Below are positions 1 through 15,046 of a stretch of 20,486 bases of DNA, piece by piece. The notes beneath the pieces are model-generated. The model was not told the origin of the DNA. It saw only the letters and a list, made by a program, of their open reading frames with translations, and did no database searches. The position numbers were made by a program, and so were the translations under genes. Within the stretch, counting starts at the first letter, position 1; the number at the start of each line of letters is the position of its first letter. Source of the stretch: Paraglomus occultum (taxonomy: Eukaryota; Glomeromycota; Glomeromycetes; Paraglomerales; Paraglomeraceae); assembly GCA_910592205.1 (NCBI GenBank), contig CAJVPJ010000627.1, positions 1 to 20,486 on the forward strand, given 5' to 3'.

Positions 1-1516
1 ATTTATACAGCACATATCAAGCATTTGTTGAATGGTCAGATATACCAATCAATAAGGATTTAGTTTTCAAAGGTGAACTGATGATTATTAAAGATTTGGA
101 GATCAGGAATGGGCTAAAGCTGCTGTAAAATCAGAGTCAGATGTGGATACTTTCAAGTCAGATCTGAAGCATACCCTGGTCCATATTGGTGGTTATGCCC
201 CTGTATCATATCCATATTCTTTATTGTATGGTATACTAGAAATTACTCAGAAACTCATAATATCCACAAAAAATACTAGCATTTTGGCTCACTGCTATTA
301 CCTTGCAGTATTAGTATTGACACTTGACCTTGTATTGACAGAAAATATTCAATTTAAAGCAATAGAAGTCTTGACAACACTCTATATCTACAAAAGAGAT
401 CCAGATACTTTTTCAGTTGTCCAAGTAGATTTGTGCCAACATATTGAACATGTTGGAGAATTGGATGAAGCTAGTAAAAGCAAGCTTCAAGATGTGGTCA
501 CATACATTAATCTAAAATATAAGTTTATTAAACCTGCAGTAGATATAGAAACATCAATAATGTTAACACAAAACACTGTAATGGAACAGAATCCTGAGGA
601 GTTGCTTGATTCTAATCCAGATGAGTTGTTGATTTTAATTTTGGATATGGTGGCTGACCATCTCACATGCCCCTTTACACAGAGAGTTACAGATGATTTT
701 AGAATACTATGATGTGGACACAAAATCAGCTACTCAGCATTAGAATAATTCAGGAAATTAAATTATTTATCATTAAAATGTTTTTACTGTAATGAAAAAA
801 TCAGGATGCAGGGTACTAAATCACTAGAAAGTTTACCCATTTATAAGCATTGTATGAAAAGTTTGTTGAAACTGGACACATTAAACCAAAAGACAACACA
901 TCAGACTTTACAGCAGCTGTGGAAAACCAGGATGATATAGATAGTGATTCTGAGGAATACTCTATTATGAAAACAAAGTTATTATATTTATTGAAAATGA
1001 AACCTAAGAAAACTCTTATGCAAAGCTTAAAAGACCAAAAGGACAACATCTCACTTACAGACAAGGCCAGACAGCATTTAATAACAAAAAATACAAGGAG
1101 GCAATATTGTAATTGTGGTTGGAAAGAGCACTTGAACATTATCCTAATAGATCTAGTATTCAGTGTGATCTTGCTTATGCATATATGCAAAATTCAGACT
1201 ACCAAAAGTGTCATGATTATATAAATAAGACTATCAAGAATAATCCTAAAAATGCCAAAGCCTGGGCAATATTAATATGTGGAAACAATTATATGTTGCA
1301 ATCTGAGTATAGACAGTCTCTTAAAAATCTTAAACAGTCATTGGAAATTGAACCAGATAATGCATTTGCATTGAGAGTAAGAGGACAAGTCTATCAAATA
1401 CAAATGCTTGAACAACATGATAGTGCATTTGTTGATCTCAATAAATCATTGGAAATTGAACCAAAAGACATATATACATTGAGAGTAAGAGGAGAAGTCT
1501 ATTACATGCTTAAACA

Positions 1517-1577
1517 ATATGATAATGACTGGTTTTGTGTCCTTTATTAGGTGCAACTAAGATATGATAATGACTGG
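1517..1577 (-). repeat. Short insertion 1 (29 bp) with 16-bp direct repeats
   Basis: The 29-bp insert is at 1533-1561. Its flanks, 1517-1532 and 1562-1577, are identical 16-mers of the TPR unit (ATATGATAATGACTGG). The insert introduces the in-frame TAG that ends the reading frame at 1550. Read on the - strand it ends in GGACACAAAA. Confidence 0.8.
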
Positions 1578-1618
1578 CTGATCTCAATAAATCATTGGAA
1601 ATTGAACCAAAAGACATA

Positions 1619-1649
1619 CAGTGTGTAACAAAAGTTTTTGGAATTTTTT
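1619..1649 (+). repeat. Left terminal inverted repeat of the Tc1/mariner element
   Basis: The first 31 bases match the reverse complement of 2897-2927 without mismatch. A TA precedes it at 1617-1618. Confidence 0.95.
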
Positions 1650-1798
1650 TTACATACTTCAATTGTCAATAACTTTTCCAAAATAAAAGCAATACGCGTC
1701 ATATTTTAAACATGTAAACAATGTGTCCTAAACTGTAAACAAATAAAGTTTTAAATAATGGTTTGTTTTGTTTTTGTTGAGAGATTGCTTTTACAACA

Positions 1799-2770
1799 AT
1801 GTCTTCTGATAAAGAAACTCAAAGAAAAATTATATTACAATTGTGGCTGAATGGAATCACTTCTGCAAAAGAAATACATTCTAGAACTGGCATCACATTG
1901 TCAACTATCTATTATAATCTAAAAAAACTGATACTGAATGAAAAAGGGGACAATTCAAGAAAGTTAGCAAGTGGTCACCCCAAAAAAGTTATAAGTTACT
2001 GTGCATGAATCAAGAGCAATAGCTCAATATTTGCATCATAATCCAAAACTGTCTACAAGAAATTTGGTGATTAAATTGACAAACAATGTCAGTAAGGTAT
2101 CTCACATGACAATTTCAAGACATTTGGCAAGATTGGGTTACAAAAACAGTCTGCCCTTAAAGACACCTATGCTTACTGTTGCTCATAAAGAAGCTCATGT
2201 TAGTTGGGTGACCAGACATCTCAATGATAATTGGGCAACTACATTGTTTTCTGATGAAACTGCCTTTCAGTTATTCAGAAATACAATAACTCAATGGTAT
2301 AAGGGTGAATGGCCAGTACAGCAGGTTCCCAAAGATCACACTAAAATCTTTGCATGGGGAGGATTTGTATACTAATACATGGAAAACTTCTCTATTTTGT
2401 TTTAGAAACATCATGAATGTGAAGTTTTACATTGATATTTTGTGCAATCATAAGCAAGAAATTAACTGACTTTTTAGAAACATTTGGTGCTTCCAGCAAG
2501 ATAATGACCCAAAGCATACAAGTCAGGTTGCTCAGGCATTTCTTAGCAAAAATTTTCTGGAAGTTCTGGACTGGCCTTCCAATAGTCCAGACTTGAACTC
2601 AATCAAAAATCTTTGGGCAATTGTCAAAAGAAGTGTAAAAATGCGCATGCCTAAAAATCTTTTAGAATTATAAATTAGAGCAGTATATGGCAGAAGAATG
2701 TGATAGAATTCTGAATAGTGTTCTAATTAACTGTATTAGATTGATGAGAAGGAGATGTGAGGTGAGATGA
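1799..2770 (+). pseudogene. Tc1-like transposase, broken (catalytic Glu replaced by Lys)
   Basis: An ATG at 1799 opens an N-terminal helix-turn-helix region (1799-2008). After a frameshift near 1985-2000 the reading continues from 2001 with the second DNA-binding part and the first catalytic Asp (codon 2253-2255, context LFSDETAF). After further stops at 2373 and about 2413, the second Asp appears (codon 2500-2502, context QQDNDPKHTS). The third catalytic position lies exactly 34 residues later (codon 2605-2607, context SPDLNSIKNLW) and is Lys where the family has Glu. There are also stops at 2467 and 2671, then a frame change into the C-terminal tail (MRRRCE) ending at 2770. Known of the family: DDE chemistry cuts and joins DNA at the inverted repeats. 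This copy cannot encode an active enzyme. Confidence 0.9.
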
Positions 2771-2896
2771 TAATAGAAAACAATGGTGAAAGAATAAGTT
2801 ACTAATTTTATATTGATAAAATCTTTGGATTATGAGCTTTATTTTGATATATTTTCCGTTCATTTTTATGCAGTAGTTTTTGAGTAACAAGTAAAT

Positions 2897-2927
2897 AAAA
2901 AATTCCAAAAACTTTTGTTACACACTG
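2897..2927 (-). repeat. Right terminal inverted repeat of the Tc1/mariner element
   Basis: This is the inverted copy of 1619-1649, followed by the duplicated TA at 2928-2929. Confidence 0.95.
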
Positions 2928-2975
2928 TATATGCATTGAGAATAAGAGGAGAAGTCTATCATATGCTTAAACAAT

Positions 2976-3038
2976 ATGATAATACACAGGTTTTGTGTCC
3001 TTTATTAGGCGCAACTAAGGTGGAATGATAATACACTG
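2976..3038 (-). repeat. Short insertion 2 (34 bp) with ~15-bp direct repeats
   Basis: The 34-bp insert at 2991-3024 has the same sequence as insertion 1 plus a few more bases. Its flanks, 2976-2990 and 3025-3038, differ by one or two bases. It sits at the same point of the TPR unit as the other copies. Confidence 0.75.
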
Positions 3039-3521
3039 ATCTCAATAAATTGTTGGAGATTGAACAAAATAATGTATTTGCATTGAGAATAAGAGGTGAT
3101 GTGTATCACATGCTTAAACAATATGAAAATGCATTGGCATAAGTCATTGGAAATTGAACCAAATAATGCATTTGCATTGAGAATAAGAGGAGAAGTCTAT
3201 CATATGCTTAAACAATATGATAATACACTGGTTGATCTCAATAAATTGTTGAATATTGAACCAAACAACACACTTGCATTGAGAGGAAGGGGAGAAGTCT
3301 ATCACATAGTTAAACAATATGACAATGCACTGGCAGATTTTAATAAATTGTTGGAGATTGAATCAGATAATGCATTTGCATTGAATAAAAAGGGAGAAGT
3401 CTATTGTATGCTTAAACAATATGACAACGCACTGGTTGATCTCAATAAATCGTTGGAGATTAAACCAAACGACGCATTTGCATTGAGAGGAAGGGGAGAA
3501 GCCTATTGCATGCTTAAACAA

Positions 3522-3599
3522 TATGACACTGCACTGGTTTCGTGTCCTTTATTATGACACTGCACTGGTTTCGTGTCCTTTATTATGACACTGCACTGG
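3522..3599 (-). repeat. Short insertion 3 (15 bp), present twice as a 31-bp tandem
   Basis: A 16-bp TPR segment (TATGACACTGCACTGG) occurs three times, at 3522-3537, 3553-3568 and 3584-3599. The 15-bp insert TTTCGTGTCCTTTAT separates them at 3538-3552 and 3569-3583. The period is exactly 31 bp, so the second copy may be a tandem duplication of the first. The insertion shifts the reading frame and leads to the stop at 3555. Confidence 0.8.
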
Positions 3600-3685
3600 T
3601 TGATCTCAATAAATCGTTGGAGATTGAACCAAACGACGCGCTTGCATTGAGAGTAAGGGGAGAAGTCTATCACATAGTTAAACAA

Positions 3686-3795
3686 TATGAAATGCACTGG
3701 TTTCGTGTCCTGGAAATGACAATGCACTGGTTTCGTGTCCTTTATTAGGCGCAACTAAGGTGGACCTCTAAAGCTGCTTGATGACAATGCACTGG
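3686..3795 (-). repeat. Short insertions 4 (15 bp) and 5 (50 bp) with 15-bp direct repeats
   Basis: Insert 4 is at 3701-3715 and shares only its first 10 bases (TTTCGTGTCC) with the others. Insert 5 at 3731-3780 is the longest copy, 50 bp. Insert 5 is flanked by identical 15-mers at 3716-3730 and 3781-3795 (ATGACAATGCACTGG). The left flank of insert 4 is an imperfect copy with a 2-bp loss. Confidence 0.8.
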
Positions 3796-3887
3796 TTGAT
3801 CTCAATAAATCGTTAGAGATTGAACCAAACAACACATTTGCATTGAAAACAAGGGGAGATGTCTATCGTAAGCTTCGTAAAAAATGA

Positions 3888-4233
3888 CGACAATAATACT
3901 GAAAGCAGGTCAATATGCCTCTAATACTAACGATCTCAATAGTAATAGATTAAACGAAAATTGAGCAAAATATCAATGTTATAATATATTTCATCACAGA
4001 GTTGTATCTAATTTGAAACAAGTCAATAAACCACTATGCACTTCTTGAACTACAAGCTATCTCCAACTTCGCGTGGTCTATAAGACATTGCTTCAGACTA
4101 AAAGGAAACGATATTAATATTGAACAAAACAATGTTCTACGAAATCAAAGATTTAAGACATGTGATCTCAAAATTTAAACGCGTACTTTTACAATTAATC
4201 TTTAATATCATATCATTTTGTAACTTTCTAGAT
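3888..4233. other. Intergenic stretch upstream of the condensin gene
   Basis: AT-rich sequence with no recognisable gene. The frame of the condensin gene stays open upstream to an ATG at 4132, but the added residues are hydrophobic and unlike the Ser/Pro-rich start expected. A tract CTTTCTAG at about 4223-4230 just before the chosen ATG could be the 3' end of an intron in the 5' leader. Confidence 0.5.
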
Positions 4234-7200
4234 ATGTCTTTCTCCCCTTCAGGCTTTCATACACCCCCCCAACGACGTTCTCTCGGCTCACCACGACGTC
4301 ACTCAGTTGGCTCACCTTTACGCTCACGAGAACTAAACATACTTCCAAATGATGCCGAAATCGAAAAGATAGCACGTCGGCGGTCGTTTATTGACAATCA
4401 ACGAAAGTCGTTAACCGAAACCCCTGTTCTTCCTAGCAGAGGTCCAAGTAAAGAAAACAGTAATTCAAGACTATCTATTACGTCACCCTTGTCAACGCCT
4501 AGGAAGACTGTCACGAGAAACATTGAAGTCGTTACACCTCAACCCAGACTTCCGCTTGAGCAGATGCACAATAATTTCGAGGAATGGATAAAAATGGCTA
4601 CTGATAATGTAAGTTTGTTTTAACATCAAGGACTGTATCAAGAACACGCAAATTGACAATATGAATAGTGGTTGAACAAGTAGATACTGTACATTTACTT
4701 TTTCAACGTCAATACCATCAAGTACAATCTATCACTAATTATAACTTTTCCCGTTGCAATTCTGAATTGATAACAGAAAATCAACCGTTCAAACAGCTGG
4801 AAGCTTGCTTTAATAGATTACTTTCATGAGATGGCGTTTCTAAAAGACGGAGACTCGATCAACTTCCAAAAGGCTTCATGTACACTAGATGGATGTGTAA
4901 AAATATATACTTCGCGTGTAGATTCGGTCGCAACCGAGACCGAAAGACTGCTCAGTGGGCTTGCTGACAGTACAAGTGAGTTTTTTTCAACGATGGAAAG
5001 AGGAAAGCGGGGACGGGCATGTCGTGGATGTGAAGACATGAATGGGAATAAATTGGAGTTACGATAAAAACCTTTCAACTCATGTCATGTGAGATTATGC
5101 ATGTATTAATGAAGCTGTTTATACCACCAGAAAATAGATTTCGAGATGAAGAAGACTCTAACCAGACGGAGGAAGCCGAAGAAGATCAAGATGCTCAAAC
5201 GAAACAAAGGCGCAAAAAGGTATGAATTCCATCTCATCTCCCTTTGATATTGCTATGTATCCAAACTCTAACTGCATTATTTATTCCGACTGAAAGCCTC
5301 GTACAGAACAGACACTAGCAAAAGATCCATCTGCCATCTGCGTCAAAGACTGGGATCTCGAATATCAAGTCGATCCCCTATGGAAAAAAATGGCAGCCGA
5401 TTTCGATGAAGGAGGCGCTCGCGGACTGTTGCTAAATCAATTGGCAGTTGATGCCGAGGGAAGGATTGTGTTTGATACTAGTGAAGCGGTCGTTGATGAC
5501 GGCAGCGAGAGTGCCGGTATCGAGATGGATATGACGAAACTTGTGTGTGAGTCTCATATTTACAAAAAGAGAGAGACAAAATGTATTTTCTTGAAATTAT
5601 TGATCACATCTTGATGACTTTTTTATGCTGTTCACAAATATACTTTAGTACAATTTCGTGACAACCTGCGGACCATCTCAGCCAAGGATATCTGCCCAAC
5701 GTTAAAGTCATTCAACTTCCACCCTTCCTCCACGTTTGACACTTCCAATCTTCCGTCCCATTTCATTGCTTCGCCTTCGGCCCCACAATTCAACATGTTC
5801 AACACCACTGATGATATTGACGCAATGATGACTACAGACGCGGACATACTAGACGACGCATTTAACGATAGTCTAGAAAATCCCTTTCTTGTAACAGAGA
5901 CAGATGCATTTCCACCTTCCAGCCCAACACCTAATAACAGAAATCGACCAGTATTTACTGAAAGAGATATCATAATGGGAATGGCCGTTGACGACAACAT
6001 GTTTTCATATTTTGATTCGGCATTCTTACGAAACTGGGCTGGGCCCGAGCATTGGAAGATCCGATCGGGTGGGAGAGGGCGTGGTGGGAATGGTAACGGT
6101 AATGGCGAAGACGTTACTGGTAATTCTAATGACGGCGACGGCGAAAATGAGCAAGAAGACAGACAGCCGAGAAGACGCCCAGCGAAAGAACCCTTTTTCG
6201 TGGATTTCCATAGTGATAATACGGACGGAAGCAGACTATTCGTTCCGGCTACTACATCGATTAATCTACCCAAAGCCGTGGAAAAGAGTGGGCACAGGTA
6301 TTTATTACCGGATGACATACATTTCAACTCGAAGCAGTTGTTGCAATTGTTTATCAAGCCACGTTGTAAGGTAAATGGATATATATGATCGATCTAAAAT
6401 GTTGCCATTTCGGGGAAGTACTGATTATCATTTGATTTGGTAGTTGGGCATAAGGCGTGCCGTTGAAGAAGATAGACCGAATGGTAAGCAACAACGACAA
6501 TTCATATAGTCCCATGTGTGTCATTTAACTTAACCGTTATCCTGGTTTATGCTAATCATCTACACTTCACATACTCGTTAAAAGATCAGATTCCAGAGTT
6601 TGGGGACGATTCAGCTCCAGATGTATCAGCCGAGTTTTGGGCCACACACGCAGACGATCAGTTTAGCGATGCTGGATTCTTTAGGGGAACCAATGCCACG
6701 AATGCCGTTGATGCCGACAATGATGACGATTGGTTTGACTTTGATGATTGTATCGGTGAACAGGCATCACGAGTGCGGCCCGAATTTGTCAATTATGCAA
6801 AGACGGCGAAGAGAGTTGACGTTAAAAAATTAAAGGAAAATATTTGGAAGACATTGGTTAATGAAGACAACGCAGGCGAGGTCAGTATGAGATTTTGTCA
6901 AGTGAATTGGATTGGATGGCTTCGAGGTTCTGCGTTACGACGGACCTGGCGCGTTCCATCTTACCGACCTTCGGCATTTGTTTATCCGAAACATTATTCT
7001 TATATTTATTTCTGACGTATTGTCACTTGCCTTTCTAGACGAATTCTGTACAATGTGAGACGAATTTTACGTCAGTAATTCAAAACGTGAAAAAGAATTA
7101 TTCCGATCGCAAGGTGAAAGATATCTCTGTGTCCTTTTGTTTCATTTGCCTTCTCCATTTGGCAAACGAAAAGAATCTTAAAATCGTGGGAACTGAATCT

Positions 7201-13742: not shown

Positions 13743-13749
13743 TATAAAG
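13743..13749 (+). promoter_or_regulatory. TATA element of the HMG-box gene
   Basis: TATAAAG lies 44 bp before the first ATG (13793) and is followed by a run of C. The spacing leaves a short 5' leader of about 20 bases. Confidence 0.5.
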
Positions 13750-13792
13750 CCCCCCAGTTGGGCGCTTGGGCTCATCTTACCCCACTTCAAAC

Positions 13793-14466
13793 ATGGAACA
13801 AAATCATTATTGTGGCCTAATCATGTTCGATACTCCGCCAACAACGACCCACAATACTCTTCCCGATACTGATCATCCCGCAACCGTTCACAGAAGATGT
13901 CGTAGGCGTCATCGATATGCCAAACTAATGCGCATACCACGTCCACCTAACGCATTTATTCTCTACAGAAAATTTAAGCAAAAAGACGTCATGGCCAAAT
14001 ACAAGGATCTAACAAACGCCCAGGTCTCTAAAATAGTCTCTATGCTGTGGTGGAAAGAATCGGAAGAGGTCAGGTTCAAGTGGGAAAAAATTGCCGACAG
14101 AGAAAAGCTTCGTCACATGAAAGAGTACCCGAATTATGTGTATCAGCCGAAAAAGTCCAATCCTCGCAAGACAAACAACAAGAAGATCAAAAAAAACGAA
14201 CAAGCTTGCCGTGAAACGGTAACGGAACTTAAATTCGTAAGCGATGTCGATGGTAATGACGATACCGACGCAAATACCGGCAGCAAAAATTCACCGTCAA
14301 TAAAACATAAATTACGTAACAGCGGCAACAACGGCAACGGCAACAACGGCAAACAGATCGATCCTAGACTGGCCGCTATAGCAGAAGTCATGTTTGCTGC
14401 GTCACGTAACTCAAAACCTGACCCATATCCTAACTACAAATCTGTAAACAATTGGTTGCATGTCAA

Positions 14467-14501
<35 letters not shown>

Positions 14502-15046
14502 GCGCTAATCCACATTCGGCGTTACCGCATCCGCATACAAACTCTGCTCTGACTATACCATCTCCACAACATTTTTCATTTGCTTCGACCACGTCCTTTT
14601 CTCCTCCAATTGTACCATCCTCATTTTCACCTCAACCTCCAATGTCGACGACATTTTCTCCTCCCAATATGTATACATCCATGTCTCCGTCTGGCTCGAC
14701 GACTGTCTATCAACCACCCCTACCACAAGAACAACCGTCACTATCACAAGCACAACCGTCACTATCACAAGAACAACAGCCATACGTATTTTACACGTTT
14801 CCGAAACCATATTCGGGCACTGACGCCATATACGTCGAGGCAAATTCTTTTCACGGATACGTGCCTGCAACCGTACCAAATAATGTAAATGGAATGCATT
14901 GCAAGTATGAAGAATTATACAACTGTGGTGTACCACCACCGCCGCCACCACCACCATCGATCACAAATGCTTCGACAAGTTGCATAACTAATGCAGAGGA
15001 TCTTTCATCAAATGGTATATATTACAATCCGATGCCAAACAGTTGA
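13793..15046 (+). CDS. MATA-type HMG-box transcription factor
   Basis: An intronless 417-residue protein. A basic patch (HRRCRRRHR, about 33-41) precedes an HMG box at about residues 46-121. The box has RPPNAFILYR at its start, NAQVSKIVSMLWW in helix 2, and ends with EYPNYVYQPKK, the signature of the fungal MATA_HMG/Sox-like subgroup that bends DNA in a sequence-specific way. The rest is low-complexity: Asn/Gly and Asn/Ser tracts (about 170-245), Ser/Pro/Phe-rich sequence (about 258-320), a Gln/Ser repeat and a run of nine prolines near 385, as seen in activation regions. Such genes are greatly expanded in Rhizophagus; only a few fungal members are true mating-type genes, so a mating role is not implied. 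The reading is also open nine codons upstream, but without an ATG. Confidence 0.93.
14464..14503 (+). repeat. AGC/AAC trinucleotide tract in the HMG-box gene
   Basis: A run of AAC and AGC codons encodes the mixed Asn/Ser tract. Such tracts vary in length by slippage; here it stays in frame. Confidence 0.8.
14726..14779 (+). repeat. 21-bp coding tandem repeat in the HMG-box gene
   Basis: Two nearly identical 21-bp units (14726-14746, 14747-14767) plus a partial third encode QEQPSLS, QAQPSLS and QEQ. The copies differ by a single base, so the duplication looks recent. Confidence 0.85.

Follow-up and report, generated by a model that had tools for sequence, protein, structure and literature searches.

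The insertion-site preferences of LINE clades are summarized in PMC13295347, which gives TT|AAAA as the target of human L1 and treats target-specific elements from the Tx1 and R1 clades. A conserved 3' stem-loop, considered necessary for template recognition, is known from LINEs of a monocot L1 lineage, and this tail is described for both LINEs and SINEs (PMC3747384). Among fungi, chimaeras of the Magnaporthe LINE MGL display hairpin-linked template breaks and, in one case, 14-bp direct repeats (PMC2104539), and a Rhizophagus repeat library contains several LINE groups (PMC11075540). Our literature search, conducted at the level of titles and abstract openings and covering few subscription journals, returned no report of a LINE with a bare 49-nt tail as its commonest genomic product.

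The family described here, found in Paraglomus occultum, resembles L1-clade LINEs (mammalian LINE-1 and plant L1) in its two frames, its APE-type endonuclease and RT with a zf-RVT domain, an RT nearest to LINE-1 ORF2p among solved chains, its target duplications and its 5' truncation. Unlike them, it has a TG(G/A)^(A/T)TGA target and no poly(A) tail, and copies of ~49 nt are the commonest. With the stringent-type LINEs of PMC3747384 it shares a conserved 3' end of ~45-50 nt with a predicted hairpin common to its subfamilies, but in this genome insertions most often consist of the tail by itself, and the hairpin is a prediction with weak covariation. Direct repeats and break points near predicted hairpins are features in common with the fungal LINE MGL, whose pieces of 230-5461 nt are described as fused to copies of other RNAs (PMC2104539), whereas ours are mostly 15-50 nt long with the duplication adjoining. 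As for the Tx1 and R1 clades of PMC13295347, the preference is strong enough to strike repeats at one base; unlike theirs, it extends over ~7 bp and is exerted at many unrelated places, not in one gene family.

The window, i.e. the whole 20,486-nucleotide stretch of DNA that was analysed, corresponds to contig C627 in an assembly of 1408 contigs totalling 32.3 Mb. It harbours the remnant of a TPR-repeat gene (Table 1) whose run of units is interrupted by a Tc1/mariner-like transposon and by short inserts, designated below by their first positions. The open frames at 1113-1550 and 3093-3557 of this remnant stop in an insert or just past one. Nine TPR units were identified between positions 1000 and 4000 by a CAATATGA-like motif, of which four are occupied and five are free. 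The Tc1/mariner-like DNA transposon (1616-2930) has perfect 34-bp inverted repeats and what looks like a TA duplication, and its transposase (HTH_Tnp_Tc3_2) is fragmented. Elsewhere, the window contains an exon for the condensin subunit Cnd2 (5618-6388) and a gene for an HMG-box protein (13748-15046). The Cnd2 fragment is 41-44% identical to Funneliformis and Acaulospora proteins over about half its length, which points to a probable fungal host close to the Glomeromycotina.

Table 1. Coordinates of the inserts, their target duplications and the frames of the putative source element (positions in the window unless the C1342 contig is named).
Feature	Position	Strand	Remarks
TPR-repeat gene remnant	1113..3887	+	limits approximate; units of ~102 bp
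Left target duplication, ATATGATAATGACTGG	1517..1532		identical to right copy 1562-1577
5'-truncated LINE 3'-end copy, 29 nt	1533..1561	- (element sense)	
Right target duplication of 1533 insert	1562..1577		followed by CTGATCTC
Left target duplication of 2991 insert, ATGATAATACACAGG	2976..2990		
LINE 3'-end copy, 34 nt	2991..3024	-	
Right target duplication of 2991 insert, ATGATAATACACTGA	3025..3039		not identical to left copy
Target duplication TATGACACTGCACTGG, three copies	3522..3537, 3553-3568, 3584-3599		
LINE 3'-end copy, 15 nt	3538..3552	-	
Second 15-nt copy	3569..3583	-	31-bp tandem duplication or re-insertion into restored target
10 nt of LINE 3' end (3701-3710) plus unaccounted TGGA	3701..3714	-	
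Target duplication ATGACAATGCACTGG between 3701 and 3731 inserts	3716..3730		right copy 3781-3795
49-nt copy, whole hairpin tail	3731..3779	-	100% identical to C1342 LINE 3' end
Restored target after 3731 insert	3781..3795		followed by TTGATCTC
ORF1-like frame, 397 aa	C1342 contig, 1853-3046		CCHC knuckle by eye
ORF2, two overlapping frames	C1342 contig, 3047-5662 and 5620-6534		endonuclease, RT, zf-RVT

The inserts share GGTTTCGTGTCC, which occurs six times in the window with at most one mismatch; over 100 shuffles, it occurred 0.07 times on average and never more than once. An earlier note on this DNA had located the inserts, and its positions were confirmed by reading the letters of the window. 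It had described the inserts as differing only in how far they extend, but those at 1533 and 2991 have TTTTG instead of TTTCG, and the former additionally has GGTGC instead of GGCGC. The AATAAA that it had placed 5-6 bases upstream of the end directly adjoins GGACACGAAA, 10 bases before the end. The duplications of 14-16 bp that it had reported at all inserts are exact at 1533, 3538, 3569 and 3731 (0 differences between left and right copies in up to 14 positions), while 2 of 14 bases differ at 2991 and the left copy at 3701 is short by 2 bp. The 3701 insert does share 10 bases with the others, TGGA making up the remainder, and the supposed 50 bp of 3731-3780 consist of 49 bp of LINE tail followed by one additional G at position 3780.

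The copies on contigs C1342 and C439 extend for more than 500 bp beyond these 49 bases; 561 bp align at 94% identity, with the same end base, and on the opposite strand the continuation is the end of a LINE. A Pfam search with the 397-residue ORF1-like frame of C1342 returned no domain. The ORF2 frames harbour Exo_endo_phos (3.4e-8), RVT_1 (6e-39) and zf-RVT (5.7e-9) domains, and their closest solved chains are LINE-1 ORF2 (1.1e-53), ahead of R2 (5.5e-29). In an RT tree, midpoint-rooted, without support values and built from one limited set of retrieved sequences, the C1342 LINE is placed beside Monodelphis and Tanacetum RT proteins, which we take to be L1, and apart from the X-element and Fusarium RTs. 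The domains and the closest solved chains point to an L1-like LINE, of which the C1342 copy, with its ORF2 split across two frames, is the putative source. Using the ORF2 protein as a query, we found at least 21 matching stretches in the assembly, several of which are pieces of one copy. More distant ORF2 relatives, with stretches at 34-62% identity, are present on C876, C1291, C120, C446 and C944 of the same assembly.

We then collected the dispersed copies. Because the genome search ranks the best candidates only, the counts are lower bounds. The 24-base insert start including two flanking G's, GGTTTCGTGTCCTTTATTAGGCGC, was found with up to three mismatches at at least 27 places, 3 of them within the window, and its reversed control at none. 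The 15-base core yielded at least 42 places with up to one mismatch; as its reversed control scored 9, part of these places are chance matches. The hairpin part of the insert was found at at least 42 places and a second subfamily at at least 23, with no control hits in either case. These sets overlap; letters were read at 37 of the 42 core, 39 of the 42 hairpin-part and 11 of the 23 second-subfamily places. Since six copies (C425, C964, C627 at 3731 and at 3538, C1248, and C97 at 27847) are identical to the C1342 LINE tail over the whole compared length, and since the second-subfamily stubs resemble the long copies of C1111 and C1395, the short copies look as if copied from LINE RNA, not from a separate lineage.

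A few loci have a more complex organization. On C152, three second-subfamily 3' ends are found ~137 bp apart (at ~2347, 2484 and 2620), an array that has arisen by either duplication or repeated insertion. Of the copies at ~23710 of C188 and ~1977 of C767, one is without the usual 3' start yet has a repeat on either side, and the other lacks a portion of the hairpin. The C523 and C545 copies have additional bases at their 5' junctions.

Hairpin tails of ~49 bases outnumber longer copies of the LINE in this assembly. Its last 402 bp have at least 33 matches; of the 33 listed, 24 start at 46-56 nt from the end, 7 extend further (the query locus among them) and 2 are shorter (P about 8e-31 versus uniform starts, for a stretch picked post hoc). 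The curated short sites agree: the 5' end lies at least 46 nt in at 22 of 38 sites, and its mid-position falls at 45-51 in 23 of 38 (P 3e-11 versus a uniform distribution over 10-60, also for a stretch picked post hoc). Around the near base of the hairpin, 5' ends form another cluster (8/38 at 17-27 nt), which was discarded as being at chance level (P 0.14).

The common start point is located 2 nt past a hairpin predicted at nt 3-29 of the unit (GCAGCU...AGUUGC), and the 5' ends of both subfamilies fall at this same place. In either subfamily, an A-run directly precedes the stem in the long copies. The short copies terminate in a small number of A's, with no poly(A) tail. Folding of the 50-nt tail was moderately better than that of shuffles, with a z score of -2.15 (8/200 shuffles as good), whereas that of the last 142 nt was not (z score of -0.90, 38/200). 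In the hairpin alignment, 94.3% of cells pair, compared with 24-55% when the alignment is slid, a value that shuffles reach in 169 of 500 cases. Covariation is weak, with only two cells changed on both sides, and shuffles do about equally well, 75/500 reaching the score and 30/500 the pair types.

Target duplications, mostly of ~11-18 bp, score 9 or more at 29 of the 47 sites with enough flank, a set that takes in long copies and some chance core matches; permuted left and right flanks reached this score in 0.04% of cases, with 9 as the highest value. At the other 18 sites, some of which are chance 15-base matches or long copies, duplication is absent by score. For the target motif, we curated by hand a list of 38 sites, from which we excluded long copies (C1342, C439, C1247, C1111, C299, C1395 and C152 at 2347), chance 15-base matches (such as C41, C63, C111, C114 and C190) and sites lacking a usable duplication; 3538/3569 was counted once and 3701 was not counted. 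The target reads T33 G33 (G19/A19) ^ (A21/T10) T29 G23 A25 (counts out of 38), with a slight bias towards the motif in that placement at a few weak sites (C5, C193 and C357 at 12198) rests on a shared TGG. Among the 32 sites outside C627, C425 and C565, TG(G/A)^(A/T)TGA is matched at all seven positions in 9 (background 0.05%) and at six or more in 18, versus 0.74% of window positions.

The TPR unit, CACTGG^TTGATCTCAATAAATC, matches this motif at 7/7 positions, and TGGTTGATCTCAATAAATC is present within one mismatch in six of the nine window units. The apparent fixed point of insertion is thus explained by the recurrence of the preferred target along the TPR gene. A TPR unit of C425 is struck at the same base as those of the window, and the C565 insert lies about one unit length past the preceding TPR match, hence at about the same point judging from coordinates. 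At least 29 TPR-type targets exist in the assembly, 23 of them outside the window. As none of these 23 coincides with an insert place found in the assembly, the motif alone does not explain why a single ~2.3-kb gene received five or six insertions; the pseudogene status of the window gene may contribute to its being hit so frequently.

We consider it very likely from these sequence features that the inserts represent copies of an L1-like LINE with an extreme 5' truncation, generated by target-primed reverse transcription of its tail. This process would explain why the copies have a 3' end in common, vary in length, lie in duplications and favour the motif. The LINE endonuclease would nick the + strand behind TGG or TGA, and the freed 3' end would prime cDNA synthesis at the extreme 3' end of the LINE RNA, TTTCGTGTCC being the first bases made. 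By analogy with stringent-type LINEs, the 3' hairpin probably serves for template recognition. Synthesis would pass this hairpin and mostly end at its far base, ~49 nt in, or sooner, and second-strand joining would produce the target duplication. With several TPR units offering CTGG^TTGATCTC, one gene would present many good targets, and insertion could recur at the side on which the duplication has regenerated the target. The nested pair 3701/3731 can be explained by such re-insertion, because the duplication left by the first insertion restores the target. Searching the assembly for close double inserts (exact TTTYGTGTCC with a spacer of 5-35) retrieved only the two pairs of the window.

The earlier note had proposed an extremely truncated retroelement with this geometry, and the longer source found in C1342 and C439 bears it out. 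The copies with a common 3' end and varied 5' ends that it envisaged do exist, in dozens rather than hundreds, and the expected duplications are clear at the 29 sites mentioned above. Its term site-specific holds as a strong target preference; the 38 curated sites are spread over many contigs and have only the motif in common, instead of forming a single genomic target class. Its small-RNA origin survives only in the sense that the LINE's own 3' tail would be the small RNA.

Within target-primed reverse transcription, the template might be a discrete 49-nt hairpin-tail RNA, either the 3' remnant of a LINE RNA degraded from its 5' side or a 3' fragment shielded by bound protein, with the 49-nt copies as complete products. 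The clustering of 24 of the 33 listed starts inside a 10-nt stretch, at one place in both subfamilies, is in keeping with this idea, as is the lack of an obvious cause for a polymerase to halt just beyond the stem once past it. However, the A-run upstream of the stem could also halt synthesis, and the short copies correspond to the LINE tail, no separate lineage having been seen among them. We give a discrete template a modest chance, and release of the polymerase at the A-run is slightly more likely to set the 49-nt length because it requires no new RNA. We propose more tentatively still, and with some doubt, that the hairpin tail might be mobile in its own right, its 49-nt 3' RNA being copied more than longer pieces and target-rebuilding re-insertion seeding tandem arrays in repeat genes.

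The discrete length and the excess of short over long copies would also fit a true SINE-like unit that has master copies and a promoter of its own. Nevertheless, the copies read have no body upstream of the hairpin, and they sort into the subfamilies of the long copies (C1342/C439 and C1111/C1395). Reading the copies revealed no tRNA-, 7SL- or 5S-derived 5' body with an internal promoter, the duplication directly adjoining the hairpin base. We therefore regard such a unit as improbable.

That a single insertion was spread by duplication of TPR units, or that the inserts are assembly errors, is more improbable again. The two 15-nt copies with identical flanks do resemble a 31-bp tandem duplication, which may equally well explain the pair 3538/3569. 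Between different inserts, the duplications differ at 1 to 9 positions, partly owing to an indel; those of 3538 and 3569 are identical, and those of 3538 and 3731 are one base apart. Because left and right duplications agree within inserts and vary between most of them with unit-specific differences, and because the inserts are 29, 34, 15, 10 and 49 nt long, the data speak for several separate insertions in the window, consistent with the earlier view that unit duplication did not generate all copies; moreover, the family is present on many other contigs. Filler templated by a single donor locus in the course of break repair, the other origin suggested at the outset, might account for the extra junction bases of a few copies (window 3711-3714; C523 and C545) and for those that begin elsewhere than at the usual end (C188 and C147), but is the least credible reading, as almost every one of the copies read starts from the same tail end, with the target motif and mostly with duplications.

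If target-primed reverse transcription of the tail is indeed at work, this LINE would alter coding genes mainly by insertions of 15-50 bp, which annotation of repeats readily misses, with a 3' RNA domain determining the product. Template choice and abortive reverse transcription become accessible to testing through the target motif, the discrete length and the rebuilt target. Such insertion would also provide a concrete route by which retrotransposition may start a short tandem repeat.
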